A DNA stretch of 26,226 nt, taken from contig NW_014013350.1 of NCBI RefSeq assembly GCF_000611645.1, positions 3,067-29,292 of the forward strand, given 5' to 3'. Positions 1-26,226 of the stretch are shown here, piece by piece (position 1 is the first letter of the stretch; every line of letters begins with the position of its first letter). The DNA is from Monoraphidium neglectum (Eukaryota; Chlorophyta; Chlorophyceae; Sphaeropleales; Selenastraceae). The translations under genes and the position numbers were made by a program. The notes under the pieces were generated by a model that was given only the letters and a program-made list of their open reading frames with translations, did no database searches and was not told where the DNA came from.

Positions 1-120
1 GGATAAGGTCGAGCTTGATGCATTGCACGTCGATAGCCTTCGCAGGCACCATTGAATCGAGGTGACTAGGAAGTGCGGGCCGCGGGCGGGGGCGCCCGCG
101 GCGGCGGGCGCGCCACGCAC

Positions 121-1563: not shown

Positions 1564-3354
1564 TGCGCTAAGGTGGCTTGTGAACGTTCTACACCGTCTG
1601 CGATGGCCTGGTCGAAACCCTCAGCCTGGGCAATTCGCCTTGATTGATAGATCTACCGGTACAGTATGATGAATTGAGTCTCAGCAGTTGCTAGAACTCG
1701 CGGGTAAACGAGCTCGTTGCAAAACGTAGGCTCCCGTCTGCTACACGTCGCGGCACAGGTGGCGGCCGCTCGCCCGCCTGGCAGCCAGCTGCGTGGCAGG
1801 TGGCGGCCTCTGCTGTACAGCCCGGTCCACACACGGGTGGCCCACCCTGGCTTCGCAAGCGACTGCACCTGGTCCTTGCGCTGCCTGCTATTGATGCATG
1901 GCGCTCTGGAAGACAGACGGCTGCATCGTGCGTGCAACAAGGGCTGGTTTGATACACCGTACCCTACCATACACATACGCGCTTTCGCAGCGGCCGGCGC
2001 ATTGTGTCAACGGGATGCTGCGGTGTGCCGTTTGGATCGCTCGCAACACACATTCGCCACTATCCAGCCACCTGCACCTGTGCGTTGACACTCGATTAAT
2101 TCAACGTCTAGTGTTGGCTCTCAGCCGTGCTACCATCAGCGGCGCAGATAAACCGCAGTCCAGCCCAGCATGCAGGCAGCAGCACGGTTGGGGCAGGACG
2201 CGTCTCGGCTCAACCGCCGGCTGCACAGCATGCCCGCATCTTCCCTGCCCTTACACCATCCCTCACTGCCTGGCGCCGCCCGCTTCGCGCAGAGCGCCCT
2301 GCCAAACTGAGGAACTTGCGGCGCCCCAACGTGCGGGTGGCATGTGCCAGGACTCACGTCGCCCAGCCACATCAGCGCTGGCCACGACATCTACCGCTGG
2401 CGCGCGGACCTGGGGCTCGCAAGTGATCCGAGCACTCGTGATGTCAGACTGATTCGAGGGTCCGGCACGAAGGAGCACACTCAAGCTTCTCAAAGCGAGC
2501 CGCGAGCTTTGCCGTTCTCTATCTGTACAGGGTGTTTGGGCTGGTTTCAAGGCTGACCTGGCACGTGCAACCCCCCTCCCCTTTCAGTCCCAACTGCCAC
2601 ACGCACCCTGGCCCTCATCCCACAGAACGACACCGGTCACCGCGCTGCCTTGGCAGGTGTATCGACAGTCGCAGTTAAGGAGGGTAAGCAGCAGTGAGAT
2701 TTGGCGACCAACATTTGGGTGTTTTCGCAGTGAGGCTAGGGGTGAACATGTGACAGCACGCCTGCTGGACGAGCTTTGTGCAACATCAACGAGGCTGACG
2801 AATCGTGACAGGCTGGCGCACGAAACTGCTGCATGCACAAACAACGCACAAGGACGGCATGAAAATGCGGGGGGGTTGATCAGCCTCTGCCTTCCATTAA
2901 TATCCAGCGGGGCAGATGCGGCGCATGTTGTGACGCTCCCGGGGTGCGAGTGCATCTGGCAATAGAGATTACAATTGTGCAGTCGGCGCGCAGCAGCGCC
3001 GCGGCGCCTGTGGTCATCGCTGCAAGGCCCTTGAGACGGGATCTCGCAGTGGATGCAATATGATTACTGGATGCCAGTCGCATGCGGAGTCCGAATGCAC
3101 AGCTCAGGACCATGCGGCAGGACGATAGCACAAGTACATGCCAGGAAAAGTCCCTAAAAGCCAGAGCAAGGCCGCACAGCATGCCACGCGCAGTGGGCTC
3201 TGATGAGCAGCCAGCTCTGGGTGTCGGAGTTTTCAAAGGCCCTGGCTGGCCGCAGAGTGCACACCGGCACCCGTTGTGAACAAAAAGCACTCAACACCCC
3301 CCTAATCACTGGCCGCTCGCCAGTGTCCGGCGACGCCGCAGCCGCGGCCGCAGC
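1564..3354. repeat. Intergenic spacer between ankA and ankB (unit of the tandem array)
   Basis: No gene of its own is supported. The stretch holds the 5' flank of ankA (from 1564) and the 3' flank of ankB (up to 3354). It is similar along its length to 5451-7312, and more loosely to 9471-10650. Shared landmarks include the AACGTTCTACAC block just upstream of ankA/ankB, the GGCAGCCAGCTG-GTGGCAGGTGGCG block near 1780, a block near 2160-2400, and CTGACCTGGCACG near 2555. Short reading frames in it are conserved about equally on both strands, as expected for shared DNA rather than coding constraint. Confidence 0.6.
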
Positions 3355-5450: not shown

Positions 5451-7312
5451 TGCTTTGAGGTGGCTTGTGAACGTTCTACACAGTCTGCGATGGCCTGGTC
5501 GAAACCCACAGCCTGGGCAATTCGCCTTGATTGATTGATTGATCTACCGGTATGATGATGATTTGAATTTCAGTGTTAGTTGGCCAAATTCACGGATAAA
5601 CGAGCTCGTTCCTAAAGACCACGTAGGCTCCAGTCTACTAAATACCTTTGCCGCACGGGTGGCTGCCGCTTGGCGCCAGCAGCTCACTGCGCCGGCCCGG
5701 CAGCCAGCTGCCTGGCAGGTGGCGGCCTCCGTGGTACAGTCCAGCTCACCCTCGAGTGGCCCACCCTGGCTCCGCATGCCCCTGTTTAATGAACCGCCAG
5801 CGGTTGATGCAGGGCGCTCTGTAAGACCGACTGTTGCCCCACGCAAGAAGGGCTGGTTCGTATGCCACGCCATCCATTCGCACTCTCACAGCAGCCGGCG
5901 CACCTCGTCAACATGGCACTGCGGTTTGGATCACCCGCAACACACATTCGCCACAATCCAGCCACCTGCACCTGTGCCTTGACCCCCCATTATCACAAGT
6001 CTAGTTTTGGCTCTCTGCCGTGCCACCATCAGCAGCGCAAATAGACCGCGCGCACTCCAGCCCAGCACGCAGGGAGCAGCACGGTTGGGGCAGGACGCGT
6101 CTCAGCTCAATCGCCGACTGCACGGCATGCACGCATCGCTCCCTACACTTACACCATGCCTCACTTCCTGCCGCCGCCCGCTCCGCGCAGAGCGCGCTGC
6201 CAAATTGAGGAACTTGCGGCGCCCCAACATGCGGGCGGCGTGTGCTGTGACTCACGCCGCCCAGCCACATCGGCGCTGGCCGCGACGTCTACGGCTGGCG
6301 CGCGGGCCTTGGGTTCGCAAGTGATCTGAGCTTTCATTATGGTTATGATTCAAGGGTCTGGCACCAATGAGCACAGTCAGGCTTGTTGAATCCGCGAGCT
6401 GCGCCTCTCTCTGCACAGGGTGTTTTGGCTGGTCTCATCTCTGACCTGGCACGCGCAACCCCCCTTCCCACTCAGTCCCAACTGCCACGCACCACCACCA
6501 CCCTGGCCCTCATTCTCAGCATGAGACCGGGCGCCTCGTTGCCATGGCAGGTGTTTTGACAGTCGCGGTGAAGTCAGGTAAACGGCAGTCCAATTGGATG
6601 GCCAACACAGCGTTGAGTCTGCAGTGAGGCAACGCGCAAAAGGTGACATCAGGACATCCTGCTGGACGCGCTGTGTGCCGGATCAAAGAAGCTGACGAGT
6701 CGTGACGTGCTCAGGCATGCGCCTACCACATGCACACACAACACACAAGAGCGGCAAGGAAATGCGTGGGCCGCCTGTTTGGGTCAGCCTCTGCCTCCTC
6801 AAACGATCTACCGGCGGGGCAGGTGCGGCGCATGGTGTCAGGCTCTCGGGCGCAGGTGTGTATGGCAATGGAGATACAATTTGTGCGCCCTGCGCACAGC
6901 GGCACCACGGCGCCTGTGGTCGTGGGTGCAAGGCCCTTGAGACGAGATCTCGCATTGGATGCAAGAAGGTTGCTGCGGTCCAATCACATGCGGCAGCCGC
7001 ACGCACCGCTCAGGACCGTGCAGCGGGACGGCAGCCGACAGCAGTGCATACTAGGCAAAAACCCCAAAAACCAGAGCAAGCCCGCGCAGCACGCCACGAC
7101 CAATGGCCGTCGGTGCGCAGCCAGCTCCTGCTTCGCGGCTTGGGGATCAGACATTGCAAAGGCCCTGGCTGGTGCGACGCCCGCAGAGTGCACACGGGCG
7201 TCCGTTGTGCCCGACACGCACTCTGCAACGCCCCTGATCGCCGCTTGCCAGGATCCAGCCCCGTCGCAATTGCAGCTGCAGCCGCAGCCGCAGCCACAGC
7301 CGCAGCCCCAGT
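5451..7312. repeat. Intergenic spacer between ankB and ankC (unit of the tandem array)
   Basis: No gene is supported. This is the 5' flank of ankB and the 3' flank of ankC, collinear with 1564-3354. Just upstream of ankB is a (TTGA)n stretch (about 5527-5543) that is shorter in the ankA flank. Just past the ankC stop, the strand read forward carries a short GCAGCC repeat (about 7271-7305). A conserved element with AAGGCCCTTGAGACG near 6930 also occurs near 3030. Confidence 0.6.
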
Positions 7313-9470
7313 TTACAGGGCAGCGCCGCCGCTGCCAATCGCGGCGTGCGCATCGAGCTCCGCCCGCGCCGCGTCCGCCACATCCCACTGCCCGTGCATT
7401 GTTGCGATCCGCTCCATCTCCGCTGCGTCCCAGGGCGCTGGCGGGTCCTGCGCCCGCATCCACCGCACCAGACCCCAGTGACCTTTGCGCGCTGCCCAAC
7501 AGCAGGCGTCTCCCCAAGGGCACCCATGGGCCCTGAGCAGCTCGATGACGTCACGGCGGCCCTTGCAGGCGGCGTAGCGGCAGGCATATTCATCAGGGGG
7601 AGCGCCAGCGTCTATCGCCCATTGCAGCCCCTCCAGGTCGCAGTACACCGCGAGATCTGTGATCACCCGGCCGTCAAAAGGGCAGCCGTGGGCGTGGAGC
7701 CACTGCAAGGCCTCCAACTGCAGGGGCAGTGCATGCGGCACCACAGGTGTGAGGGGCCAAGCGCGGGTTGCTCAAAAGCAGGTTGTAAGGGGCTGAGGTC
7801 TAGGGACACACGGGGCATTGGTGACAGGGAGCGGCACACCCACCAGGGGGGGCGGCGCACCCACTAGGGGCGGCGGCCGTGTGGGGCTGCACGCGTGGCG
7901 TCCCAATTAGCAGGCGCGCCAGGGCAAACCCCCTCCATGCAAAGGGTGCGCGAGGCCGGGCAGGTGGTGTGCTGCAAAGCAGGCGGCGCGCGGGGGTGTC
8001 CGCAGCAGCGGGCGCGCCGCGCACCTTATGTGATTCAGCGGCGGCGTTGGCTGCGTCCGCCGTCATGGGGATGCCCTCCTCGAGAAAGACCCGGCGCATC
8101 ACTGGGATGCTGCCGCCCCACGCCGCTGCATGCGCCATGTCCTCGAGTCCAGTGGCTTTGTCCGAGATCAAGGACGCGCCGCGCGCCAGCGCCCACTCCA
8201 ACAAGCCAGCGTTGCCCGCCCATGCGGCAACTTGGCAGACGCGGTCCCCCAGCAGACAACCGCTATCATAGGCATAGGTGAGCGCAGACATGCCGCCTGA
8301 AGCTGCTGCGACAGAGGTCGTGTCGCCGTCCCAAGGCACTCCGTGAGAGCGCAGCAGCGCGAGCATAGCGACGTCGTTGCGCCTCGCCGCCGCATGGCAG
8401 GCGCACCGGGCCGCGGGCCCCAAGGTGCAGTGCCTGGGATCCAGCAGCCACTGCACCATTGCGGTGTCGCCCCTTTCCGCAGCAAAGGCCAGTGCCCGGG
8501 GACCCAGGGGAAACGGCGCCACGCTGCTGGGTTCGTCCGCATCTTTGCTGCCGCCGCCGCCATGGCTGCTACTCCTGATGCCGCTGCCTTTGCTGCTACC
8601 CCCCTCGCAGCAATGCCGGAAGAGAATCTGCAGGCATTCAAGGCTGCCCGTATCGCTGTCTCCGACTGCCTCCATGGCCGCCCGCGCGCCTGCCGGAGCG
8701 CCGTCTGCAAGCGCCCAACGCAGGAGCTCCGATCGCCCATCCCGTGCTGCTGCGGCGGCAGTCCTGTCATCATACGGCGCGCCTTGCTGCCTCAGAAATT
8801 GCAGCGCAGCTAGGTGGCCGCCACGGGCAGCGCACGCGCATTCCCAAGCTGAGAATTCACACCACCCCTCAGGCCACCTCATGCGCTCTTCTGCCAAGTA
8901 GCGCAGAACCCCGACTTGCCCGGCTGCTGCGGCCGCGCCTGGAGCGCGTGAAGCCTCGCAGCCGGCGTCCAGCAGTATGCACAGCGCGCCGAGCGCGCCG
9001 GCGGCCGCGGCCGCGGCGGCTGCGTCAGCGTCGAACCTGCAGAGGCCCTCGGCCTGCACCCAGCGCAGCGCCGCGATGTCGTCGTGGCACGCGGCGGCTG
9101 CCAGGTAGAAATAGAGCTGATGTAACGCGTTGTCTTTCAGGACGCGTATGAGAGCTGGCAGCCGCTCCCGCGCGTGCCACAGCGGCACAAAAAGATCGCG
9201 CACACAGAAGCCATCGCCGCCAGATCGCCCCTGGACGCGCGGCTGGTCGGCGGCCCAGGCGCGCCAGAACCGGCTGAGGCGGGGTATGGTGATATGCATC
9301 AGACTGAGGGGCAGCGCCGCAAACACCAGCTGCAGCGCTGTCGTGTCAATTTCGTCGCATGCAGCTGGAGCTTGCGCCGTTGACGGGGCACTGTCGGGCA
9401 GGGCTGGAGGGCTGTGCGGGTGAGCAGTGCCGTCCGGTGGCTTGCATGGCTCCGGGAGACCTATATCCAT
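7313..9470 (-). CDS. ankC: intact F-box-like/ankyrin-repeat protein, two exons
   Basis: Exon 1 is 9470-8025 (482 codons) and exon 2 is 7717-7313 (134 codons plus TAA). The intron spans 7718-8024 (307 nt) with a GTGCGCGG donor and CCCTGCAG acceptor, phase 0. The predicted length is 616 residues. Domain order matches ankB: short Pro-rich N-terminus, F-box-like helix region (ALQLVFAALPLSL...RLSRFWRAW), then ankyrin-like repeats with an interrupting Ser/Gly-rich linker near residues 290-320. The N-terminus (MDIGLPEPCKPP) differs from ankA/ankB and is closer to ankD across the head-to-head junction. No frameshift or stop occurs in either exon, and the splice sites are good, so it is probably functional. 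The cellular role is unknown; a ubiquitin-ligase adaptor is the best guess from architecture. Confidence 0.87.
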
Positions 9471-11143
9471 TGGTGTATGCTGGCTTATGGGCGTCCACCC
9501 GCTATGAGAAGGTCGTGGCGTAGATCAGGGGCGATTCGCTTTTGATGAGTCTCAGAATAGGACAGAAGTCGCGGTGAACGAGCGATGATCCTTGCAACAG
9601 ACACGCCCAGGCTCCAGGTTCCAGGTACATGGCTGTGCCGCACAGGTACTTGCCGCTCAACGCCAGGAGTTGACGGCCAGGCCTGTTCACGGCGCCTGCC
9701 CGGCAGCCAGCTGCCTGGCAGGTGGCGACCTGCCAACTCGGTGGTGTAGTTTTATCCACCCACGAGTCCAACCTGGCTTCGCATGGTCCTTACGCTGCAT
9801 GTCGTCAATGTAGGGCGCTCTGGTGTCAACACCGACGCTAGCATCGTGCAAAAAGGGCTGGCTTGTATGCTACACGCGCTCTCGCAACGACCGGTACATT
9901 GTGTCGATGCTTCTCTGCGGTTTTGACCGCCTGAACACACATGTGCCGCAGTCCAGCAACCTGTGCCTGTGTCTCGGCACTCGGAAATACAAAAGTCTGT
10001 AAATCTGTTGTTGTTCGTTGCCGTGCCACCATCAGCAGGGAAGACCGCAGTCCAGCACAGCATGCAGGCAGCAGCACGGTTGGGACATGGCGCGCCTTGG
10101 CTCAAACGCTGACTGCACGGCGTTCACATGTCATTCACCTCCCCTCCCCCTGTCCCTCACTTCTTGCCGCTGCCCGCTCCGCTCATAGCGCCCTGCCAAA
10201 AAAGAGAAACGCGCGGCGCCCGACCGCGCGGTTGGCGCGTGCCGGCAATCACGTCGCCCAGCCACATCATCGCTTGTTACGGCGTGAGCCGCTGACGCAT
10301 GGGCTGGGGTTTGCAACCGATCTGAGCGCTCGTGATGGTTCATGGGTCTGCTGGGCGCGTCAGGGCGCAGCCAGATGAGCAGGGGGAGGGACGGCGGGGG
10401 TAGCAGCGGCGGACGCAGCTGGGTGAAGTTTGCTGATGTAAGGGGGAGCAGTTTTTAGCGGCGCGCAGGCAGCTGATGCTGGACGATCTCATTAAGGGCA
10501 CCAATCAGCACAGTCGAGCGTTCCGAAGCCGTGGGGTTTGCATCTCCCTGCGCAGGGTTGTGGGGCTGGTTTTTTGTCTGACCTGGCACACGCACCCCGG
10601 CTCTCGTTGCAGTCTCAACTGCCACACACACCCTGAACCTCATCCCCCTTCTCGCCCGCCATGCCCCACAAAACGAGGAGGGACTCCTCGTAACGCCGGC
10701 CAGCCCAGGGGTCCAGGCCGGCTGCAAGCGCGATGATAGCGTTGCACAGGGACCCACTACACCACGATCAGACAATTGTTTTCTGGTACGTATGCCCAAC
10801 ATCGACGGCAAGCAGGAGAAAAATGAGGCACTGCCGTATGCGAGGCAAGGCGGGGTCGCCTGTTGGCCATCCGCAACGCAGAGTTGGCCCGTGGCCACCA
10901 GCACCTGCCAAGAAGCTAGCTGCCAGGCCGACGCCCAGGAGCCGCCAGGCCGCCAGGGGCCAGATGCGTGCCTCACAGCCATGCAAGTCCACGCCACCTG
11001 GAGCGTAGTCAGCTCTTCTACAAATATGACAGCTCGTTCTTTCGCGAGTTGCGTCAACTGCTGAAAATTCCCTGTTTTATACCGAGGGTCACCAAGACGG
11101 TCTTGACCTGCCCGTTGCGTGTGAAAAATTACAAGTCAGTCCA
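9471..11143. promoter_or_regulatory. Shared 5' region between divergent ankC and ankD
   Basis: This 1.67-kb gap separates the start of ankC (minus) from ankD (plus), so it must hold both promoters. From 9471 to about 10650 it resembles the 5' spacers of ankA and ankB in the same orientation. From about 10870 on it carries the reverse-complement version of the block (CACCTGCCAAGAAGCTAGCTGCC against the ankB-side form), as expected for an inverted copy. No coding region is supported. No convincing TATA box was identified. Confidence 0.5.
10673..10691. repeat. Perfect 8-bp inverted repeat near the array's inversion junction
   Basis: ACGAGGAG, a three-base GGA loop and CTCCTCGT form a perfect short hairpin. 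It sits almost where similarity to the minus-strand units ends and the inverted plus-strand unit begins. It could be a chance palindrome or a scar of the inversion. Confidence 0.55.
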
Positions 11144-13248
11144 ATGGATGTGGTTCTGCGGGAGCCATGCAAGCCACATGAAGGCACGCCACAGCCGCAC
11201 AGCCCTCCAGCGCCGCCCGACAGCGTCGCAACTGGTACGACAGCGCTGCAGCTGGTGTTTGCGGCGCTGCCCCTCAGCCTGATGCACATCACCATACCCC
11301 GCCTCAGCCGGTACTGGCGCGCCTGGGCTGCCAGCCAGCCGCACGTCGTGGGGCGATCTGGCGGCGAGGACTTCTGTGTGCCCGACACCGACCTGTTTGT
11401 GCCGCTGTGGCACGCCCAGGAGCGGCTGCCAGCTCTCGTTCCTGTCCTGAAAGACGATGCATTGCCTCATATCAAACCCTACCTGGCGGCCGCCGCGTGC
11501 CACGACGACATCGCGGCGCTGCGCTGGGTGCAGGCCGAGGGCCTCTGCAGGTTCGACGCCGGCGCCGCCGCCGCCGCCGCCGCCGCCGGCGCGCTCGGCG
11601 CGCTGCGCATGCTGCTGGACGCCGGCTGCCCGGCCTCGCACTCTCCAGGCGCGGCTGCGGCAGCCGGGCAAGTCAGGGTCCTGCGGTACTTGGCAGAAGA
11701 GCGCACGCAGCGGCCAGAGGGGTGGTGTGGATTCACGGCCTGGGCATGCGCGCGCGCCGCCCGTGGCGGCCACCTGGCTGCGCTGCAGTTTCTCGGGCAG
11801 CCAGGGGCGCCGTACGATGATGCGACCGCTGCCGCCGCGGCAGGAGGTGGGCATTCGGAGCTGCTGCGTTGGGCGCTTGCAGACGGCGCTCCGGCAGGCA
11901 GGCGGGCGGCCATGGAGGCGGCCGGAGACAGCCAGAGGGGCAGCTTGAGTGCCTGCAGATCTTGTTCTGGCACTGCTGCGACAAGGGCGGCAGCAAAGGC
12001 GGCGGCATGAGCAGCAGCCATGGTGGCAAAGGCACCGAAGGCGAGGGCCATCCCAGCAGTATGGGGGCGTTTCCCCTGGAGCCCAGGGCACTGGCCTGCG
12101 CTGCGGCCAGGGGGGATGCAGCAATGGTGCAGTGGCTGCTGGAGCCAGGGCACTGCCCCTTGGGGCCCGCAGCCAAGCACGCCTGCAGGGAGGCGGCGAG
12201 GCGGAATAACGTCGCTATGCTTGCGCTGCTGCGCGCGCACAGCGTGCCGTGGGACGGCGACACGACCGACGCTGCAGCAGCAGGTGGTGGAGGCGGCATG
12301 TCCGCGCTCACGTATGCATATGATTATGGTTGCCCGCTGGGGGACGAAGTGTGCTTTTGCGCCGCATGGGCCGGCGATATTGCCATGCTGGAGTGAGCGC
12401 TGGCGCGCGGGGCGCCGTTGGTCCCAAATAAGGAAAAACAACTCGAGGACATGGCATTTGCAGCGGCGTGGGGCGGCAGCATTCCTGTGATGCGCCGGCT
12501 CTTTTTGGAGGAGGGACTTCCCATCACGGCAGACGCAGCCAAGGCCGCGGCTCAATCAAACCAGGTGCGTGGCGCGTCCGCCGCTGCGGGTGCCCCAAAG
12601 TGCTGTTCACGCTTGCTAATTGACGTTTCCTACCCACGTACCCAGATCGCGCCTGTCCTGTGAATGGGGGTCGCTCACGTGCTGCGGCTCATGAGGACCT
12701 CCTGCAGCCCCCCATGTATGGCGACCTCCTCAGGTGCGTGCCCCCTACTTGTCAATCAATGCCCCCCACTTCCCTTGACTTTTACTCAAGCACCTGAATC
12801 TGACACGCCCGTGCTCCCGGCTGACCCCTCTCATGCACCACCCTTGCAGTTGGAGGCCTTGCAGTGGCTCCACGCCCACGGCTGCCCCTTGGACCGCCGG
12901 GTGACCTCGGGGCTCGCGTCGTCCTGCGACCTTGAGGGGCTCCAGTGGGCGTTAGACGCTGGCGCTCCCATGTACGAGCGAGCCTGCATAGGCCCCGCTC
13001 AGCATGGACGCCGTGACGTCATCGAACTGCTCAGGGCCCATGGGTGCCCCTGGAATGACGCCTGCTACCAGGCAGCGCGAGCAGGGCACTGGGGCCTGGT
13101 GCGGTGGATGCGCGCGCAGGACCCGCCAGCCCCCTGGGACGCGGCAGAAATGGAGCGGATTGCAGCAATACACAGGCAGTGGGATGTGGCGGACGCGGCG
13201 CGGGCGGAGCTGGAAGCGCACGTGAATGGCGGCGGCGGCGCTGGCTAG
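11144..13248 (+). pseudogene. ankD: F-box-like/ankyrin-repeat gene with one frameshift and one nonsense change
   Basis: Exon 1 would run 11144-12564, followed by a GTGCGTGG donor, a 285-nt intron, a CCCTTGCAG acceptor, and exon 2 at 12850-13248 (132 codons plus TAG), with the same architecture as ankB/ankC. Two lesions break it. First, one C is missing near 11945 (GGCAGCTTGAG, where all paralogues have GGCAGCCTTGAG), which ends the first frame at 12010 after 288 residues. Second, the homologous frame then meets TGA at 12394-12396 where paralogues encode Trp (LEWALARGA). Beyond it the frame resumes and is clean through exon 2. The otherwise well-preserved sequence suggests recent inactivation; assembly errors could explain one lesion but less easily both. 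A truncated N-terminal F-box plus a few repeats could still be made. Confidence 0.82.
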
Positions 13249-13845
13249 GCAGTGGCTGCGACCCTGGGGTGGTAGGAGAATATTGGGGAGCAGCAGAGGC
13301 TTTGGATCAACGCATCTGTGGGCATAAATTGCAGAGTGGTTTGCGTGCTCCCTGTATGTGGTTGAGGACTGGTCCGGGACAATTGTGCTTGCACGCATTG
13401 CTGGCTGCAGCGGGCCGTGGAACCCGAGCTGGGGCTGCGCGTGCGTGCTGCATGTGTGCAACATGCGTACATTTTCTGCTGGCATCAGCTGCGAGAGCAG
13501 AAAGATGATGGGCACTAGCCCTTGCCATGGACCATGGGCCACGGCACACTCTTGCCGGTAACTAGTAAAGGCATTCAACATCTAAACAAAGAATCTTTGC
13601 AGAGTTTTGCCCTCACTTAACCAGCTGCAGCTTACCCGCAGTCAATCGCTCAGTCGGCCTCCGTCAAAGTTCGTGTTGTGCGGGGACCCCAGCTTTCAAC
13701 TCCAGCTGCCCTTGGGTGCAAGTGAATGTAGACTCGGCTGGGCCGCTGCCCAACTGGAGAGTGCCCCAGCCAAGTGTCTCACATCAGTGTCGAGAGTGGG
13801 TGCGTGTACGCGTGCGTGTGTGCGTGTGTGCGTGCGTGGGTGCGT

Positions 13846-13928
<83 letters not shown>

Positions 13929-14305
13929 CGCGCTTGGACTTCACGTGCGGTGCCTCAACCCGCAGGAGAGCGTGAGCAGCTCAGCGCAAGGACGAGACGC
14001 TGTTGCATGCAAGAAGAGGTTGGGTGACACACGGCATGCCCATCGCTGGTGGTTTACTGCATGGAAGGACTGTACGCTACAGTAATGTGCCAGACCCACC
14101 TGATGTGAAGCTGCCAAAGGGGCCAAGTGGTGCTACTGTAGCAGAGCGCGGTGTCGCACAGCATGGTAGTAGCTTCCTCCTGATAGCATTCAAATTGCTT
14201 ATGTCGTTTGTCCTCTCTAGATCACACCCCGCCTGTAGAAAGCAGTACGCCCATTCGCCGGAACGTGCCCGCCGTGGGCATACCTTGGCCAGAAAACTCG
14301 GAGCA
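13249..14305. other. Spacer between ankD and ankE
   Basis: No gene is supported. It holds the 3' flank of ankD, the alternating TG/CG tract at 13841-13933 and the 5' flank of ankE. Reading frames across the microsatellite translate into Cys-Val or His-Thr runs and are artefacts. Confidence 0.6.
13841..13933. repeat. (TG)36 microsatellite flanked by CG alternation, 93 nt of pure purine-pyrimidine alternation
   Basis: From 13849 to 13920 the sequence is uninterrupted TG, followed directly by CGCGCGCGCGCGC to 13933. A second alternating stretch, 13801-13838, precedes it after a GGG break. Such tracts are length-unstable and are the classic sequence type for left-handed Z-DNA. Confidence 0.95.
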
Positions 14306-16450
14306 ATGCATAAGGGTGATCAGGATCCATGCAAGCCGTCCGAAAACACGACACAGCCGCCCAGGCCTCCAGCACCGCCCGACAGCGCCCCTGTCGTGCC
14401 TGCGCTGCACGCTTCATTCGGGCTGCAGGACACAACAGCGCTGCAGCTAATTTTTGCGGCGCTGCCCCTCAGTCTGATGCACATCACCATTCCCCGCCTC
14501 AGCCGGTACTGGCGCGCCTGGGCCGCCGACCAGCCGCGCGTGGCAGGCACCAACCAAGATCAACGGGTCCGCACAGCTGACAGGTTTGTACCGCTTTGGC
14601 ATGCGCGGGAGCGGCTGCCAGCTATCTCGCGCTTACGGACACGCGGGCGCGGCCTTGAGGTGGCGCGCATGCAGAGTACATACCTAGCAGCTGCCGCGTG
14701 CCACGACGACACCGCGGCGCTGCGCTGGGCACAAGCCAACCGCCTCTGCGGGCGCGACGCACTAGCCGCCGCCGCCGCTGCGGCCGGCGGCGCGCTTGGC
14801 GCACTGCGCATGCTGCTGGACGCCGGCTGCCCGGCCTCGCGCGCTCCAGGTGCGGCCGCAGCAGCCGGGCAAGTCGGGGTCCTGCGGTCCTTGGCAGAAG
14901 AGCGCAAGCGGCAGCCAAAGGGGTGGTGTAACCTCGCGGCTGAGGATTGCGCTCGCGCGGCTCGCGGCGGCCACTTGGCTGCGCTGCAGTTTCTCAGGCA
15001 GCAAGGCACGCCGTACGACGACGCAACCGCCGCTGCCGCGGCAGGAGGCGGGCACTCAGAGCTGCTGCATTGGGCGCTTGCGGATGGTGCCCCGGCAGGC
15101 GTGCGGGCGGCCATGGAGGCGGTTGGAAACAGTAAGAAGGGCAGCCTTGAGTGCCTGCAAGTCTTGTTCCGGCACTGCTGCGACAAGGGCGGCAGCAAAG
15201 GCGGCGGCATCAGCAACAGCGGCCATGGTGCAGGCAGCAGCAAAGGCGCGGACCATCCCAGCAGAGCGGCGCCGTTTCCCCTGGATCACAGCACACTGGC
15301 TTGCGCTGCGGCCAGGGGGGGATGCAGCAATGGTGCAGTGGCTGTTGATGCCCAGGCGCTGCACTGTTGGGCCCGCGGCCCGACGTGCTTGCGAGGTGGC
15401 GGCGAGGCGCAACGACGTCGCTATGCTCGCGCTGCTGCGCAAGCACGGGGTGCCGTGAGACGGCGACACGACCGACGCTGCAGCAGAGGGGAGCGGCATG
15501 TCTGCGCTTGTGTATGCGTATGACAATGGTTGCCCGCTGGGGAACCACGTCTGCTATGGCGCCGTGAAGGCGGGCGACATTGCCATGCGGGAGTGGGCGC
15601 TGGTGCGCGGGGCGCCCTTGATCCCGGCACTGCAAACAGGTGCCGAGGTCATGGCGTATGCAGCGGGATATGGCGGCAGCATTCCAGTGATGCGTCGGCT
15701 CTTTCTGCAGGAGGGCATCCCCATGACGGCAAGTGCAGCGAAGGCTACCGCTGACCAGGGTAACGTGAGCAGCTTTCAACGCCGATCATGCCGTTCGCCG
15801 CCCGCGAGGTCCCGGCTTGTGCATAATCGGTTCAACCGCCAATCTCCCAGACATCCTGAAGCTTTCCTGAGGCCAAGAGATTTCCCAATTAGGTGCCTGC
15901 AATTCCTGAATTTAGACTTTTGCTCGTCAAGCTCTTGCATGACTTGTCTCCATGCCTCATGTTGTGGCGCGAAGACAATGTACCCCAAATCCGTCTTAGC
16001 GCATCCCCAATAGCCCCACCCGCGTTCCGTGCGCCAACCCTGCAGTTGGAGGCCTTACAGTGGCTCCACGCCCACGGCTGCCCTTTCGACAGCCAAGTTA
16101 CGCATGGCCTGGTCTCTGCCTACAACTTGGAGGGGCTGCGGTGGGCGATAGACGCTGGCGCCCCTGTGGTTGACTATATATGCTGTTGGGCCGCTTGCAA
16201 GGGCCGCCGTGACGTCATCGAGCTGCTCAGGGCCCATGGGTGCCCCTGGTATGACGCCTGCTGGGAGGCAGCGCAAGAAGGGCACTGGGGCCTAGTGCGG
16301 TGGATGCGCGCGCAGGACCCGCCAGCCCCCTGGGATGCGGCGAAGATGGAGTGGCTTGCAACAGTGCACGGGCAGGTGGATGTGGCGGACGCGGCGCGGG
16401 CGGAGATTGGAGCACACACTGTAATTGGCGGCGGCGGTGTTGCGGGGTAG
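14306..16450 (+). pseudogene. ankE: F-box-like/ankyrin-repeat gene with one frameshift and one nonsense change
   Basis: Start is set at ATG 14306 (MHKGDQDPCKP), matching the PCKP position of the paralogues, although the frame is open upstream to 14003. Exon 1 would end at 15764 before a GTGAGC donor; exon 2 is 16046-16450 (134 codons plus TAG) after an ACCCTGCAG acceptor; the intron is 281 nt, phase 0. Lesions: a run of seven G at 15315-15321, where ankD has six, shifts the frame within AAARGD and ends it at 15523 (405 residues). In the restored frame, TGA at 15456-15458 replaces the Trp codon of GVPWDGDTT. After that the frame is clean to the end. The segment after LIRVL is also altered (SRLRTRGRGLEVARM). 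The homopolymer indel could be a sequencing error; the TGA is less easily dismissed. Confidence 0.8.
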
Positions 16451-17002
16451 GCAACGCCTGTAGCTCTGATGCGACCAGGCCGTTGAGGTTGTTGTCCTGG
16501 GAGCAGCAAAGCATGCGTCCGCATGCAGTGCATGGCAGGATTTCTCAGGTCATGGCTGAGGCAATACTGCTCGTGCTTTGTGTTGTTTACTTCTGCCGCG
16601 CGCCGCCTTGCCTTGGCATGGTGCTGGTCTGCATGTGCAGTAGGCACTGCCTGCAGTTTTTGCGAGCGCGAGCAAGCTCTGCGTGCCATTGCCGTCATCT
16701 CACGATCAGTATTTCCCCCAGAATCCGATGTGTTACTGTGCTCTTCTGCATCTGTAAGCAGGTGCGTTGACATTTCAGACCAATTGCTACCCTACGCCTT
16801 GATTGCAAACAGCCACACCCAACCCACCAAAGGGTGGGCAACAAACACGCACACGGTGCATATTGTCACGGTCAAAACAGAGCCGGCTGCAAACTTCGAC
16901 TCAGCCGCAGCCTCAGCCCAGACAGCGGCGAACGCAGACGCGTATCGGCCGCCGCGAGTCATGTCATGCAGGTGGTGAGTCACAAGAAACTTTGCCGGCT
17001 GG
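16451..17002. other. Convergent spacer between ankE and esterase-like gene 1
   Basis: This is the 3' flank of ankE (plus) meeting the 3' end of the SGNH gene (minus). It is collinear with 21281-21839. Both copies hold a paired GCATGC element (16511-16516 and 16521-16526; 21333-21338 and 21343-21348) after AGCAGCAAA. No gene is supported. Confidence 0.55.
16753..16757 (+). terminator. Candidate polyadenylation signal TGTAA of ankE
   Basis: TGTAA, the usual green-algal polyadenylation signal, lies about 300 nt after the ankE stop in the sense orientation. A five-base motif occurs often by chance, and the ankF copy has CGTAA at the equivalent place. Confidence 0.3.
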
Positions 17003-17456
17003 CTACTTCTCCAGATCTGCAAATGCCGGCCCAGGGTTTTCTCGGTCAAAGTCTGTGAACAAAGGGAACTGCCATGGCATCTTCACAGGGTCCATTTCGG
17101 GTATCTGGGCCTGTTTGGGAGGTTGCACATTTGCAATATTGCATTTGCAGTTGTGATGAACAGGACGAGCAAGTGTAATGATGCAGGTGGGCAGGGTGGT
17201 CGTCGAAGGAGTTGTTGTGTGTGATATTGCAGCCGCCCCTGCACGCAAAAGGGCACGCAACACCATTTGTTGGGGGTCATTTATGAGGACGCAAATGCCA
17301 CACATACACACACACACATACGGTCTCACGTTCTCTCTCTCACACAACATGCACACACGAACACATATTTTCTCACCCTCTCTTTCTGTCTCTCTCACCT
17401 TTTCTCTCCTTTATCCCCTCTGTTGTGTGCATACACTCGCGCACGCATATGCGCAT

Positions 17457-17490
<34 letters not shown>

Positions 17491-18665
17491 GCATACACAC
17501 ACACCTTGATTGTGCTGAGGACATCATTGAACAGCTTGTCGTTGCCTCCAGCTGCGGGCAAGATCGGGGGGCAGATGCGTGCCGCAGCAGCAAGTCTCTT
17601 TGACAGCTCCAGCCGCTTGTCACGGGCCCCCGCGTCGCCGGCGGCGGCGCAAGCCGCATACTTGCGATCTCCAAGTCGTTTCGGCGCAACGCCCGACTAG
17701 CGCCGACCGGACAGGATTTCGCCATTCATGATTTTCCATCGACTCACGCCCAAGGTGCAGCTTGTCTGGGTTGATGAACTTGGTCTGCCAGTCCGGCACG
17801 CGCTGCCAGGTCGTGAAGATGTCCAGCACCGTGGCGTTGTGCTTCCTGCCCAGCGCCTGCAGCTGGTCCACATACAGCTGGCTGTTGGCCAGGCTGCGGG
17901 CGCCCTGTGGGGTGAAATTTGATGGGGCCAGAAAGTCCAGCAAGGTACTGTACAACGAATTGGCGGGACGCCACATCAGCGCGGTGCGCATGTTGCTGGA
18001 TGCACGGCGCATTGGAAACAAGGAGCCGGCGAGACCTCAAGGGGAGGCTGCCCGGTGTACGAGCGCAGGACGGCCAAAAGACCCCGCACGCAAGCGGCGT
18101 CTGTCTGTCACCGCGCGCCGACCCACCGGCTTGCCGGGCGTCTCCACCACGGGCGGCGGCGTGATGAGCAGCCAGTGCCTGATGCCCTGCTCGTTCCCTT
18201 TTGACACAATGGCGTCCACATTCTCAAAGAACTTCTCGGGTGAGATGTACGCCTTGCTGCGAGCACAGAGGGTCCCGGTTCATGGCGCAGCAGGTGAGGA
18301 GAGCTTGCGCCGGCCGCGGCATGCTCAACCAGACGCCCACGCCACAAAAGGCAGCAGCTGCTCCACCACCCACGAACAGGCCACGACGACCCGCCCCACG
18401 CGCGCCCACAATGCAAGTTGGCAACCCTCAAGACGGCCGCTTCGCCCGCCCAGGGGATCGGGCGGCCGCTGGTAATCTCATGGCGACCCGGCTGGCCCCT
18501 CCCGCCGCCCCGCCTGCCCAGGGCGGCCTCACCCGGCGGCTTGCTTGACCTGACTGTCCTTCACCCCCAGGAATGCGATGCCCATTATGGGGTTTGTCAC
18601 GTCAAACAGCTGGCGCGAAGTTCAGCAGCGCGCGTTTGGCACGCGGATGGAGTCAAACGTGTGTT

Positions 18666-18721
<56 letters not shown>

Positions 18722-20000
18722 CAAGGGGGGAAAAGCGCACCGCACGACTTGTCTGTGCGTACAAGGGCACCAAGGGGCTGGGGCGGCCTGCATTTGGCCG
18801 AAGCACACCTTGTTTCAACTGCTGCCCTCAGTTGCCTGCCAGCCCCCAAGCGAGTGCAACCTCCGTTTCCCCTCCGCCTCGCTCTACCCCGTTCCTTCCC
18901 TGGCCCCGCCTCGGGCCCCAGCCGCCAGCCCGCCACCCCTCACCCCTCACCGAGTCCAGCATGTAATCCACAAAATAGTTGGTGAAGTAGCCCCCAAAGC
19001 CGCGATTAATGAGGTCGGCCTGCACATTGGCGGCAGGGGGGTGGCCAGGGGTGGGTCCGCGTGCGATGCAGGCTGCACATCCGCTTGGAGTGGCGGAAGC
19101 ACCCCCGTGCTTGGTGGGACAATGGCAAGCAGCAACACAACTGCCTACCTCCGCGCTGCAGAGGAAACCCTAGCTCCCGACGGTTCCCGACTCGGCGTTC
19201 GGGCGCGCACTGGCCGCCTGCTGGGCCCGAAAAGGCGGCGGAGTGCCCGAACAGCCGACCGGCTTCACTTTTGGGCTGTCGTCTCCCCCAACACCCCCCT
19301 TCCCAATCGCCACGCGTACCAGTTGGCCCCTAAACCACTTCTGGCATGCTCACCCCTCCACCGCAATGCAAGGGTTCTCCTCCCCTGATTGCTAAATGAG
19401 GGGCTGTGCGACAGAAAACTCGGGTCCCTGCCCCACACCCACCTTTCGCGCGTAGGGCCCGACCAGCTTTGACGCCCAGCCGCCGAGGTTGTAGCTGAAC
19501 CCGCTCTCCGTGAGGCCGTCGCCGACCAGCACTATCGACGGCCGGGACCTGGCCACGCGGGACCGCAGGGAGCGGTGCGGGACGGCCCCGGGCGCGCCGT
19601 CGTCGGCTGACAGCATCCGCACCGTCATAACATCTTGATGGGCCACGCTGGCGCGCTGCAAAGTCGAGGGGTCAAGCGCGAATGGAGTTAATGAAGCCGT
19701 TGGCGGGGTTGAGACGTGACGAGATAAGTGAGGCGTGTGCTCTGGTACACATGCGGGCCGATTGAACCGCAGAATTCCCTGCTAGCGGCTAGCCCGCATG
19801 CAGCAGCAGTGTGATGTGAATGCGCGCGCAAGCCGGCCACGGGTGTGCGCGGCCAGCCAGCGCACCTTTGCCTGCAGCCCCATTCCAACTCCGAGCCCTA
19901 CTGCTAATCCGGCTATCAGGGCTAGCGCGAACGCCCCTATAAACCATTTCTCGGTGGTCGTTCTAACACCTTTCGGCTCCCCCAGCAAGTCTCCGCTCAT
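17003..20000 (-). CDS. Membrane-anchored GDSL/SGNH esterase-like protein 1 (IAH1 type), catalytic Ser and Asn replaced
   Basis: Eight exons: 20000-19866, 19655-19443, 19019-18951, 18609-18533, 18256-18127, 17904-17748, 17551-17505, 17110-17003; all introns are GT-AG and every junction is in phase, giving 311 residues. Residues 19-42 (after TTTEKW) form one hydrophobic Gly-rich segment, a likely signal anchor. The SGNH fold follows: block I reads VLVGDGLTES with Gly92 where the family has the nucleophilic Ser; block II is INRGFGGY (121-127); block III is FLGVKDS with Lys156 in place of Asn; block V DKLHLGPGGN keeps Asp255 and His258. Family order and the MPWQFP-FTD C-terminal tail match isoamyl-acetate-hydrolysing esterase-like proteins. 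Hydrolase activity is therefore doubtful although the frame is intact. The start is the ATG conserved with copy 2 (MSGDLLGEP); an in-frame ATG 15 nt upstream exists. Confidence 0.85.
17458..17487. repeat. (CA)15 microsatellite in intron 7 of esterase-like gene 1
   Basis: Read on the gene's strand it is a TG repeat starting only about 17 nt inside the intron whose donor is itself GTGTGTGTG (17504 downward). Other CA-rich stretches lie at about 17300-17320, with a pyrimidine-rich stretch at 17331-17420. Confidence 0.9.
18673..18720. repeat. (GT)24 microsatellite in intron 3 of esterase-like gene 1
   Basis: 48 nt of uninterrupted GT, preceded by impure GT. On the gene's strand it is a CA repeat ending about 63 nt before the exon 4 acceptor. 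The matching intron of copy 2 (23470-23785) has only a short, interrupted GT stretch near 23510-23570, so the repeat expanded or decayed after duplication. Confidence 0.95.
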
Positions 20001-20484
20001 TGTTGATGCTGTCATGATGTATGAATACGTCTACCCGCCTCTCACTCAATATGCTGGCCATTGACGGAGCCGTGCTGTGATGCAGCTCGGAAATCGGAAC
20101 AGCAACAATGACCGTTGTCTGGGGACCATGCTTTCTGTGCTTTGCGGCAGGTCACCCGTGAGAAATGGGTTGTTTGAGTATGTGTCAAGGTTTATCAATG
20201 GCAGTGGTTAGTCATGAATTCGTGCCGCTTTGCCGAACTGCCGGGATTGACCGAAGCGGCGGGTATGGCAGCACCAACGGCAAGCCTGCCGCAGCCCCAG
20301 CAACGCGGCAAGCTGCCGGTTTTCCTTGTAAGCATGGCTGCTTGTCAAACGGTAGAAGGATGGTGGGTAGGGATTGCAAGCTAACAAGGGGACACAGCAG
20401 GCCAGGCAAACGTCGACACTCCCTTAGGCCCCCGAGATGACATGCGTGGTCGGCCGAGAAATCGGCAGAGAGGTGGTCTGCCAA
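20001..20484. promoter_or_regulatory. 5' region of esterase-like gene 1
   Basis: This region is collinear with 24743-25195. Conserved stretches include CTCACTCAATATGCT about 40-50 nt upstream of the start, CGTGCCGCTTTGCC near 20220, and GCAACGCGGCAAGCTGCC near 20300. It must contain the promoter; no TATA box was recognised. An open frame at 20165-20440 has a partial counterpart at 24908-25156, but the alignment needs compensating indels, so it is not called a gene. Confidence 0.45.
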
Positions 20485-21280
20485 GGACATGGCGATTGCA
20501 GCGGGGTACAGCGGCAGCATTCCAATGATGCGTCAACTCTTCTTTGGAGGAGGGCCTCCCCACGACGGAGGACGCAGCCCCTGTCGCTGCTGGCCTGGGA
20601 AAAGGCGAGCTTTAAAACCGCGGTTCGCCGCCCGCAAGTCCCCCGCATGCACATGGTCGATCCAGCTGCCGGTTTCCTGGACTTCTTGAGGCTGTCCTGA
20701 TGCCTGGCCATTTCGCACTTGGGTGCCTACAATCTCTGGTTACAGACTCTGCTTATCAATGCACTCTTGAATTGCTAGTCTCCCAGGGCAGTCATGCACA
20801 AAGATTCCCTCCCAAGCAAAAGGTTCTTAGCAAGTCTGTGAAAGCCATGTCGCCCTTGCTGCGCCACCCCTGCAGTTGGAGGCCTTGCAGTGGCTCCACG
20901 CCCACGGCTGCCCCTTTGACAGCCAAGTCACCTGTGGGCTGGTCTTGGCGCGCAACTTGGAGGGACTGCTGTAGGCGATAGACGCCGGGGCCCCCCAGCG
21001 ACTACTTATGCTGCCGCGCCGCTCGCAGTCGACACTGTAACGTTATCCAGGTGGTAAGGGTGCACGGGTGCCTTAAGTATGGTGCCTGCTACCAGGCAGC
21101 GCGAGCAGGGCAATGGGGCTTGGTGCGATGTTTGGATGCGGGCGCGGGACCCGCCAGGCCCCTGCGTGGGATGGATGCGGCGAGGATGGAGTGGCTTGCG
21201 GTAATTCACGGGCAGTGAGATGTCGCGGACGCAGCACGGACGGAGCTCGAAGCGCGCGCCGCATCTGTTTCGGTGTGATG
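20485..21280 (+). pseudogene. ankF: 5'-truncated, decayed ankyrin-repeat copy
   Basis: It begins abruptly inside exon 1 at the MAIAAGYSGSIPMMR segment (ankE has MAYAAGYGGSIPVMR). It has a one-base insertion in CTCTTCTTTGGAGG, continues through an intron still alignable to ankE (GTTCGCCGCCCGC near 20625), and reaches a TGCAG acceptor at 20875 with exon 2 from 20876. Exon 2 starts well (LEALQWLHAHGCPFDSQV) but hits TAG at 20972-20974 where ankE has Trp, and then decays with several indels. There is no promoter or F-box region of its own. The truncation point coincides with the duplication junction. Confidence 0.85.
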
Positions 21281-21839
21281 GGCAACGCTTTGATCCGGCC
21301 GGGCTGTTGAGAGATTGCGCAGAAGCAGCAAAGCATGCTTTCGCATGCAGCGCAGGGCGGGGTCTCCCAGGTCGCGCCTGTCTTGATGCTTGCGGTGCTT
21401 TTCCTATTTGCTGCCACCGCCAGCCGCCTTGTCTCTGCATGATGCTGTGCCGCAGTGTGAGCTGGCGCTTCATTTTTTTGAGGTCCCCGCAAGCCCGAGC
21501 AGGCGCTCTGTCCCCTTGCCCTCATCCTGTGGGTCAGTCATCTTAGACATACTTGCACTTTTCTCTTCTTCAACCGTAAGAAGAGGCGGTGAGCCTTCAT
21601 ACCGCACGCTACCCTGCACGCTACCCTGCACCTTACTTGATGCAAACAGCTACGCCTAAACAACCAAAAGCCATCAACAAACACGCACGTGGTGCATTTC
21701 GTCATGGTCACAACAAAACCGGCTGCAAACATTGACTTGGCCGAAGCCTGCGCTCATTCAGCAGCGAATGGGCACGCATATGGGCCGCTGCAGGTCATGT
21801 CATGGGTGATGAGTCAGGGTCTTGAACTCTGCCCATTGG
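21281..21839. other. Convergent spacer between ankF and esterase-like gene 2
   Basis: It is collinear with 16451-17002 and includes the paired GCATGC element and an AACCGGCTGCAAACATTGAC block matching the ankE side. No gene is supported. Confidence 0.55.
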
Positions 21840-24742
21840 CTACTTCTCTAGATCTGCAAATGCCAGCCCAGGATTCTCGTGGTCGATGTCAGTCATCGAA
21901 GGGAACTGCCAGGGCATCTTTACTGGGTCCATCTCGGGTATCTGGGCCTGTTTGGGAGGTTGCAATTGTGTGATGTATTTTGCGGTCATGACGGGTAGGA
22001 CGAGCGAGAGTAGTAATGCAGGTGGGGGCAGGGCAGTTGGCAAAGAGGTTGAGTGTAGTGGTGCATCTGTCCACGCATGCAGTAGGCCATGCGGCGCAAA
22101 ATTATCAAGGTCCTTGAGGATGCAAGTGCCACACGCACATACCTTCCCATTTGACACACAAACACCACACTCACACGCACAACTCATCTATCCCTCCCTC
22201 CCTCCCTCCCTCTCTCTCTCTCTCTCTGTGTTTCTCTCCCCCTCTCCCTCTTACTCCATCTTCCGCTCCCTCTCACTCCATCTTGTGCAAGCATGCACTT
22301 TCATACGCAGGCACGTGCACATACACACACACACATGTGCGCGCGCGCACGCGCAAACGTGCGAACAGACACACACACGCCTACCTTGATTGTGTTGAGG
22401 ACATCATTGAACAGCTTGTCGTTGCCTCCAGCTGGGGTTGAGGTTTGGGGGCGGATGCACTTAGCAGCAGCAAGTCTTTATAGACAGCTCCAGGTCGTCC
22501 CGGGACGTCGCGCACCGACGGCGGCGCTAGCCGCACTCTCCTCACCCCAAAGTCATTTCGGCACACCCCGGCCGACGAGCGCACTATCAAAAATGACTAC
22601 ATTTGTGCATGGTCTCCAATCGACTCACGCCCAAGGTGCAGCTTGTCCGCATTGATGAACTTGGTCTGCCAGTCCGGCACGCGCTGCCAGGTCGTGAAGA
22701 TGTCCAGCACCGTGGCGTTGTGCTTCCTGCCCAGCGCCTGCAGCTGGTCAACGTACAGCTGGCTGTTGGCCAGGCTGCGGGCGCCCTGTGGGGCAAAATA
22801 TAATTGGCCCAGAAAGGATGGAATAGGTATAATGTATTGGCGGGCAGTCACATCAGCGTGGTGTCAACATTACTGGACACTTGGCGCGTTGCAAGACACG
22901 GGCTGCCGCGAGCTTGAGGGCGAGGCTGCGGGACAATGGAGCGCGGGACGGCCAGAGGCACTGGGCGTACATGCCAAGGGCGCCATCTGTCTTGCCGCGT
23001 GCCGGCCCCACGGACCCACCGGCTTGCCGGGCGTCTCCACCACGGGCGGCGGCGTGATGAGCAGCCAGTGCCTGATGCCCTGCTCGTTGCCCTTCGACAT
23101 GATGGCGTCCACGTTCTCAAAGAACTTCTCCGGCGATACGTACGCCTTGCTGCAAAGGGAGGATCCCCATTCACGGCGCAGTAGGTGGGAAGAGTGTGCG
23201 CAGGCCAAAAGGAATTCGCGCGGACGTTCACGCCACGGAAAGCAGCACCCGCTCCACCACCCGTCACCAGGCCCCAACGCCCCGCACCCCGCGCTTGCAG
23301 GTTGCAGGCCGGCGACGAAGGCGGCCGCAGGTCCGCTTATAGCACCCGTGGCTGACAACTCCGGCCGCCCGGCCTGCCCAGGGCAGCCTCACCCTGCGGC
23401 TTGTTTGACCTGGCTGTCCTTCACCCCCAAGAATGCAATGCCCATTATGGGGTTTGTCACATCAAACAGCTGGGGAAGGTTGCGTTTGGTGGAGCGGTTG
23501 GGGTCAAGAGTGTGTGTGTGTGGTGTCTGTGTGGTGAAGTGTGCATGTATGTGTGCGGTCGACAGTGGAACAGCACACCGCAAACTTGTGTGTTCACACA
23601 AGGGCACCAAGGGGCCGGGGCCGCCGGCATTTCGCCCAAAGCACACATGTTTCTAACGCTGCCCTCCGCTGCCTCCCAGCCCCAAAGCGAGAGCACTCTC
23701 CGTTTCCCCTCCGCCTCGCTCGACCACGCCCGCTCCCCGGCCTCTCCTCAGGCCCCAGCCGCCAGCCCACCCCCTCACCCCTCACCGAGTCCAGCATGTA
23801 ATCCACAAAATAGTTGGTGAAGTAGCCCCCAAAGCCGCGATTAATGAGGTCGGCCTGCACATTCGCAGCAGGGGGTGGCATCGCATGCGGCGCAGGCTCC
23901 ACATCCGCTCGGACAGGCGGAAGCAACCCGTGCACATTGGAAAGCCGCAACACAACCTCCTGCTGGGCCCGATGGGGCGGCGGGTCGCCCGAACAGCCGA
24001 CCGGCTTCGCTTTCGGGCTGTCGTCTCCCCCAACACCCCCCTTCCCGATCGCCACGCGCACCAGTTGGCACCTAAACCACTTCTGGCATGCTCGCCCCTG
24101 CACCGCAATTCACAGGTTGTCCTTCCCTGACCGCTGAGGAAGGCGCTGTGCGACGGAAAACTCGGCCCCTGCCCCACACCCACCTTTCGCGCGTAAGATC
24201 CGACAAGCTTTGACCCCCAGCCGCCCAGGTTGTAGCTGAACCCGCTCTCCGTGAGGCCGTCGCCGACCAGCACTATCGACGGCCGGGACCTGGCCGCGCG
24301 GAACCGCAGGGAGCGGTGCGGGACGGCCCCGGGCGCGCCGTCGTCGGCTGACAGCATCCGGACCGACTCCACATCCTGCTGCGCCACGCTGGCGCGCTGC
24401 GAAGTTGAGGGGTGCATCGCAAATTGACTTTAAAGCCGTTGGTGCGGGTGGCAAGCTGCAAGATATGTGGCAAGTGTGCTCCGGTACACATGCGGGTCGA
24501 TTCGACTGCCGGTTCGTACTGCCAGGCGGCTTGCAGCAGCACTGTTCTGTGAATGCGCGGGCGAGCCTGGAAGCGCTCTGCAACGGGTGTGCATTGGCCA
24601 GCCGGCGCACCTTTGCCTGCAGCCCCAGCCCAACTCCGAGCCCTACTCCTAACCCGGCTATCAGGGCTAGCGCGACCGCCCCTATCAACCATTTCTTGGT
24701 GGTCGTTCTACCCGTCGGCTCCCCCAGCAGGTCTCCGCTCAT
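21840..24742 (-). CDS. Membrane-anchored GDSL/SGNH esterase-like protein 2 (IAH1 type), catalytic Ser and Asn replaced
   Basis: Eight exons with the same phases as copy 1: 24742-24611, 24396-24184, 23854-23786, 23469-23393, 23149-23020, 22785-22629, 22431-22385, 21947-21840; 310 residues, stop TAG. The start MSGDLLGEPTG is conserved with copy 1; an upstream in-frame extension (MRWWLDAFLHHKST) has no counterpart there. One hydrophobic Gly-zipper-like helix (about residues 19-41) precedes the SGNH domain. Block I is GDGLTES (Gly for the nucleophile Ser), block II INRGFGGY, block III GVKDS (Lys for Asn), block V DKLH with Asp and His kept. By eye about 92% identical to copy 1 and about 97% across exons 3-7, while introns differ far more. 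All splice sites and frames are intact, arguing for a maintained but probably non-hydrolytic protein. Confidence 0.85.
22191..22227. repeat. Pyrimidine tract (CCCT)n(CT)n in intron 7 of esterase-like gene 2
   Basis: TCCC repeats run into CT repeats, and a further CT-rich stretch continues to about 22275. On the gene's strand it is a purine (GGGA/GA) tract. Copy 1 has a weaker pyrimidine-rich stretch in the same intron. Polypurine mirror tracts of this type can form triplex DNA. Confidence 0.85.
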
Positions 24743-25819: not shown

Positions 25820-26032
25820 ATGGCATCGCCGGCGCCGGCGCCGGACCAGCAGCTGCTGCAGGCGCCGGCACCCGCCGCCTCGCCACCGGTGCCGCCACCA
25901 ACGACAGCGGCGCGCCCGCGCGGGGGCGCCTGGGACGGCGCTAAGATGTTCTTGGCGGGCGGCTCGGCGGGCGCGGTGGCGCGCACCTGCACCGCGCCGC
26001 TTGATAGGATCAAGCTCCTGTTCCAAGTGCAG
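25820..26032 (+). CDS. Mitochondrial-carrier (SLC25) family protein, first exon only
   Basis: From ATG 25820 the frame gives 71 residues to a GTGCGAGC donor at 26033 (VQ-CAG before it, phase 0). The first 40 residues are Ala/Pro-rich and low complexity. Then GAWDGAKMFLAGGSAGAVARTC leads into PLDRIKLLFQVQ, the Px[DE]xx[KR] signature ending the first transmembrane helix of a mitochondrial carrier repeat. Carriers of this family have three such repeats and six helices and move nucleotides, cofactors or metabolites across the inner mitochondrial (sometimes plastid) membrane. The TAPLDRIK form is common in adenine-nucleotide/CoA-type carriers, but the substrate cannot be set from one helix. The rest lies past the window's right edge. 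It is unique here and marks the end of the duplicated region. Confidence 0.85.
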
Positions 26033-26226
26033 GTGCGAGCAGCGCTGTGGCAGACCGAGGGCATCAGCACCCGTTGCCTGCGGCTGCCGGGATCACCACA
26101 CCGCTTGCCAGCCATGCACAGGCACTCAACAAACATAATGAATGATGCGGCAACATTTTGCTGGCGAATCCGCCTCTCTCAATGCCCACCGATCCTCATC
26201 AAGACCCTCACATGACGCTCCCACCC

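Follow-up and report, generated by a model that had tools for sequence, protein, structure and literature searches.

A putative membrane-anchored pseudo-esterase lineage in green algae and its tandem gene pair in Monoraphidium neglectum

Two esterase-like genes with altered active sites

We analysed a stretch of 26,226 nucleotides from the green alga Monoraphidium neglectum (contig NW_014013350.1, positions 3,067 to 29,292; hereafter the window), which contains two neighbouring genes of the SGNH/GDSL esterase superfamily, here called A and B. In both genes, the nucleophilic Ser is replaced by Gly and the Asn of the oxyanion hole by Lys, and the same two changes mark a single clade of related proteins. 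On balance, we think it probable that A and B belong to an old green-algal clade of IAH1-type proteins that lost ester hydrolysis once, was kept by purifying selection, is held at a membrane and binds an anionic or acyl ligand in its pocket. Judged from the sequences, a conserved lineage of membrane-anchored pseudo-esterases would be the best-supported reading. The sequence changes, the single clade, the selection between A and B and the predicted fold were computed in this analysis.

The host assignment agrees with protein P0001 (MNEG_2456, 257 amino acids) of M. neglectum, which matches gene A with 100% identity along 83% of the query. This deposited model begins within exon 2 and thus lacks exon 1, which is supported by the similar N-terminus of P0002 from M. 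minutum. An earlier note, made from the letters of the window alone, had described 16 exons with intact frame and splice sites. We confirm this, as all 14 introns are of the GT-AG type, the frame is kept throughout and both reading frames are open. Long (GT)n/(CA)n runs lie in introns 3 and 7 of gene A (window positions 18660-18720 and 17458-17504); their counterparts in gene B are shorter or interrupted. The two proteins match the Pfam family Lipase_GDSL_2 with 39.0 and 37.0 bits (cut-off 32.9), which places them in the SGNH/GDSL superfamily, and the family Lipase_GDSL with 20.6 and 22.8 bits, slightly under the cut-off of 23.6. The predicted fold is SGNH; yeast Iah1p (PDB 3mil) heads the Foldseek and VIA-align matches, and IAH1 is thus the closest among the solved structures, which makes the proteins IAH1-type.

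The motifs GDGLTE in block I, GVKD in block III and DKLH in block V, which the earlier note had read in both genes, were found again at the mapped codons (Table 1). The residues G123, G126, D255 and H258 are conserved in the group with the GDG motif and in the canonical group alike; the block II residue is presumably one of the two glycines. SGNH hydrolysis by Ser needs both the Ser nucleophile and the oxyanion Asn. Since both are absent in A and B, ester hydrolysis of the Ser type should be lost in them. For a Streptomyces lipase of the SGNH type, replacing Ser, Asn or His by Ala is reported to inactivate the enzyme, whereas the same replacement of the block II Gly is tolerated (PMC10779480).

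The changes would be moot if a different exon supplied the usual motifs, a possibility that the earlier note had raised itself. We scanned the three coding-strand frames of both gene spans and of the stretch between them and found neither GDS[LIVTYNFM] nor a hydrophobic residue followed by x-GxND, although motifs split by a splice site would escape such a scan. As far as this pattern scan reaches, we reject an alternative exon in either gene span.

Table 1. Positions of the two genes, their altered motifs and the associated features in the window
Feature	Position	Strand	Remark
Gene A	20000-17003	minus	ATG to stop, 8 exons, 311 amino acids; deposited as MNEG_2456 without exon 1
Gene A, exons	20000-19866, 19655-19443, 19019-18951, 18609-18533, 18256-18127, 17904-17748, 17551-17505, 17110-17003	minus	splice sites, open frame
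Gene B	24742-21840	minus	ATG to stop, 8 exons, 310 amino acids; splice sites, open frame
Gene B, exons	24742-24611, 24396-24184, 23854-23786, 23469-23393, 23149-23020, 22785-22629, 22431-22385, 21947-21840	minus
Gly92 of A	19515..19517	minus	codon GGC, nucleophile position, block I GDGLTE; canonical rows Ser 21/21 readable
Gly of B	24256..24258	minus	codon GGC, nucleophile position, block I GDGLTE
Lys156 of A	18559..18561	minus	codon AAG, oxyanion Asn position, block III GVKD; canonical rows Asn 22/22
Lys of B	23419..23421	minus	codon AAG, oxyanion Asn position, block III GVKD
Block V of A	17755..17766	minus	DKLH, Asp255-His258; Lys256 in place of Gly of canonical DGLH
Block V of B	22636..22647	minus	DKLH
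Exon 1 of A	19866..20000	minus	putative membrane anchor: hydrophobic, Gly-rich stretch (FIGAFALALIAGLAVGLGV) after a short N-terminus; hydropathy 2.40
Exon 1 of B	24611..24742	minus	same putative anchor; hydropathy 2.41
Decayed copy of the left neighbour gene's last exon	20631..21380	plus	part of the same duplicated unit as the esterase-like gene; identity to 15801-16558 is 75.9%

A single clade of relatives

Three protein searches, in which 3786 candidates were scored in one and about 8,000 in each of the others, yielded 43 distinct proteins. The algal relatives with GDG and GVKD that the earlier note had proposed to look for are among them. Gly takes the place of the nucleophilic Ser of a competent SGNH hydrolase in all 12 members readable in block I (A, B, P0002, P0003, P0004, P0006, P0008-P0012 and P0015), and Lys that of the oxyanion Asn in all 14 readable in block III (A, B, P0002, P0003, P0004, P0006, P0009-P0012, P0015, P0024, P0025 and P0026); of these, P0008, P0015 and P0024-P0026, whose sequences are incomplete or interrupted by introns, were placed in the clade by similarity alone. 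Block III reads GVKD in 12 of the 14, GTKD in P0003 and GVKE in P0012. A change private to this pair is thus rejected. The named sources of the clade are M. neglectum, M. minutum and Tetradesmus obliquus, and further members include metagenome records. P0006, P0009, P0010, P0011 and P0012 form a second GDG subgroup, with one open frame each and a long Gly-rich C-terminus.

We inferred an unrooted tree of 32 rows from which three trait columns were excluded. The ten longer GDG rows lie on one side of a single branch (100/100, length 1.29), and the other 22 rows carry the canonical Ser and Asn wherever they are readable (Table 1). The direction of the change, a loss of Ser and Asn, is taken from the usual state in the superfamily and not from the unrooted tree. 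Compared to IAH1-type esterases (Iah1p; P0013 and P0014), the clade differs by Ser to Gly, by Asn to Lys in block III, by His to Tyr or Phe in the HVP motif (His in 18/20 canonical rows, Tyr or Phe in 10/10 clade rows) and usually by Gly to Lys or Arg in block V (Gly in 18/19 canonical rows, Lys or Arg in 9/10 clade rows). Gly92, Lys156, Asp255, His258 and the block II glycines are invariant in the ten clade rows. The substitutions had been proposed to predate the duplication of A and B; they do, and beyond this they mark a much older algal clade.

Among the candidates scored, the three protein searches named no members from Chlamydomonas or Volvox, nor any canonical proteins from these genera. 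Pattern-limited scans for prokaryotic and viral GDG relatives gave 33 motif-matching stretches in genome_contigs and 46 in viral_contigs, none of which is a relative by tblastn, and the phage records yielded no match.

Selection on the gene pair

Of the 930 aligned coding bases, 64 are different between the two genes. The ratio of nonsynonymous to synonymous substitution rates (omega) is 0.178 overall by NG86, 0.180 by LWL85 and 0.101 by YN00, and in the core (residues 83-276 of A) it drops to 0.075, 0.094 and 0.032, respectively. For the 35 C-terminal codons, omega is 0.12 by NG86 and LWL85. Of the differences in the core, 22 are synonymous and 6 are nonsynonymous (binomial P 2.4e-9), and the motifs are free of them. 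Over 933 aligned bases, the exons differ by one indel, which spans 3 bases and leaves the frame unbroken, whereas the introns differ by 82 indels in 1831 bases, a rate that would predict 41.8 in the exons. These tests assume independent sites and independent indels, and the indel counts vary with the alignment. The omega in the core is far below the value near 1 by which the earlier note would have been refuted. Because of this low omega and because the readable close relatives share both changes, the Gly and the Lys are not explained by chance or decay.

The duplication included more than the esterase-like gene, since a decayed copy of an exon of the gene to the left lies between A and B. The alignment of this copy has a score of 624, compared to at most 90 in 50 shuffles; the ends given for the copy were set by the slices chosen for this comparison. 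The alignment has 18 gap openings, and a stop falls in the register used by the left copy. The copy provides an internal control for decay, as it decayed while the esterase-like gene was kept. A and B are recent tandem copies inside the old green-algal clade.

The N-terminal segment

The hydrophobic segment of exon 1 suggests that the N-terminus of A and B acts as a signal anchor and that the domain lies outside the cytosol. Similar segments are found in P0002 and P0008, where the best hydropathy over 19 residues is 2.19 and 2.41. The N-termini of P0004 (1.61) and of P0006, P0009, P0010 and P0012 (1.95-2.06) resemble signal peptides, and the partial proteins P0028, P0033 and P0034 have a hydrophobic tail at their end. 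A hydrophobic N-terminus is likewise present in the canonical algal paralogues P0013 and P0014, so that secretion or anchoring is not special to the GDG clade.

Possible roles of the old pocket

Retention as a membrane-anchored pseudoenzyme, as the earlier note had suggested, is supported by the missing Ser and Asn, the strong purifying selection, the single origin in the tree and the hydrophobic N-terminal segment. Ester hydrolysis was most likely lost once in the clade, with the replacement of Ser by Gly and of Asn by Lys, and the clade would then have been maintained under purifying selection. We infer that the N-terminal membrane segment probably holds the protein with its SGNH domain on the extracytoplasmic side. 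The block II Gly and the block V Asp and His were kept, and a Lys was gained in block III, in most members joined by a Lys or Arg in block V, which suggests that the pocket is still constrained. Such a putatively basic pocket would most likely serve as a non-catalytic binding site for an anionic or acyl ligand.

Several observations weigh against this reading. The 81 N-terminal codons are weakly constrained (omega 0.55, 0.48 and 0.40 by NG86, LWL85 and YN00). P0003 has no window of 19 residues above 1.5, and the anchor is thus not common to the whole clade. The same protein retains the block V Gly, so that Lys or Arg is not universal there. Furthermore, an invariant Asp and His would be needless for a plain scaffold and could point to residual or new chemistry.

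GDSL pseudoenzymes are already a known kind, given the precedent of Arabidopsis ERMO3/MVP1/GOLD36 (At1g54030). ERMO3 appears to be a pseudoenzyme, and the mutant was still complemented by a G59S version, into which the catalytic-centre residue had been introduced (PMC3498303). Like A and B, it has Gly (G59) at the catalytic place, and it works regardless of that residue. Unlike A and B, it apparently belongs to another part of the family, and the available part of PMC3498303 makes no mention of a Lys change. Following this precedent, A and B may act as scaffolds or partners of other proteins, with the pocket kept for the stability of the fold alone. ERMO3 interacts with the PYK10 complex, its G59S version remained functional as described above, and the Gly-rich membrane segment, judged by its hydropathy, could oligomerise. 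The residues that are invariant in the ten clade rows better fit a working pocket, however, and we consider a pure scaffold role unlikely, if still worth serious attention.

A second alternative is a new enzyme. Here, Lys156 would fill the place of the Ser beside His and Asp, with the Gly giving room, and the resulting Lys-His-Asp site might carry out a new reaction without Ser or form, at the surface of the algal membrane, a dedicated receptor site for an acyl or phosphate ligand. Each of the ten clade rows has both the Gly and the Lys, and Asp and His are invariant there. As both changes lie on one stem branch, the pairing may be a single event, however, and does not prove coupling. We know of no SGNH enzyme that uses a Lys-His-Asp site, and we regard this idea as distinctly improbable. 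If it held, a very common hydrolase fold would have been put to a new use.

It is also very unlikely that A and B are haplotypes joined in tandem by the assembly. The genome of M. neglectum is diploid (PMC3890519), yet the window contains no N, the introns are merely 80.1% identical overall, the synonymous divergence (dS) is about 0.2-0.3, and the segment upstream of B is the decayed exon and not a second intact flank; even then, the clade-wide change would be unaffected. Lastly, relics or redundant copies heading to loss, which the two lost catalytic residues and the intact-motif paralogues in the genome might suggest, are hardly credible and were rejected, given the core omega of 0.03-0.09, the absence of a frame-breaking indel in the exons, the retention of the motifs between B and Tetradesmus P0004 at 46% identity, and the decay of the neighbouring duplicated exon.

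Known sequences and other genes of the genome and the window

Members of the clade are named SGNH hydrolase-type esterase or lysophospholipase L1-like esterase in some databases (P0001 in UniRef, P0002, P0006), which is contradicted by the residues at their active site. Among plant GDSL sequences, 5 of 46 mutated sequences were changed in the catalytic sites and are most likely pseudoenzymes (PMC4757993). They resemble A and B in the loss of catalytic residues; however, they are scattered and were treated as false positives in a motif scan, and, as far as the source's main text goes, where the term GDG does not occur, they include no clade with Gly and Lys. The main text of the M. neglectum transcriptome paper contains no MNEG_2456, GDSL or esterase (PMC5556983). 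The pair had been put forward as special: it is a recent duplication within a conserved clade and thus not unique. For an IAH1-type algal clade with the Gly and Lys pair, no description was found in the searches of open PMC papers.

A Pfam search of the M. neglectum genome detected six SGNH matches on five contigs outside the window's genes, two of them over the cut-off; this census is partial, covering 34.6 megabases (Mb) of assembly compared to a diploid genome of about 68 Mb (PMC3890519). One contig (L020, G000:C1043) contains two canonical IAH1-type paralogues in opposite orientation, which keep the motifs GDSLTE and GTND (minus strand, about 45-1660) and GDSITE, GAND and DGLH (plus strand, about 3200-4980). 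More distant SGNH genes are two on C82 (GDSLTE, GTND), one on C912 (GDSITQ, GIND match) and one on C841 (GTND, block III only). A match under the cut-off (L023, G000:C378:5523-5858, minus strand) has no GxND in the matched stretch and reads AALWD, with DRMH further on; this block III exception apparently belongs to another SGNH branch outside the IAH1 type. A serine-esterase fold seems to have lost its chemistry once and to have been long kept beside working-type paralogues in the same genomes, which makes the clade a neat natural setting in which to ask what purpose a dead esterase pocket serves.

The remainder of the window contains other genes. Positions 1-16450 hold an array of several related genes on both strands, whose long open reading frames (ORFs) have SLMHITIPRLSRYWRAWAA and LEALQWLHAHGCPF segments (among the matches listed); the decayed exon between A and B is a copy of the last exon of this array. 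Two ORFs adjoining gene A (13976-15520 and 15893-16447) match no Pfam family, so that the name ankyrin is unsupported for them. The ORF at 7803-9524 of the array has ankyrin repeats by Pfam (Ank_2, 40.4 bits, cut-off 27.3), and at 25820-26035 the plus strand carries exon 1 of a gene for a mitochondrial carrier (Mito_carr, 31.1 bits, cut-off 22.3).
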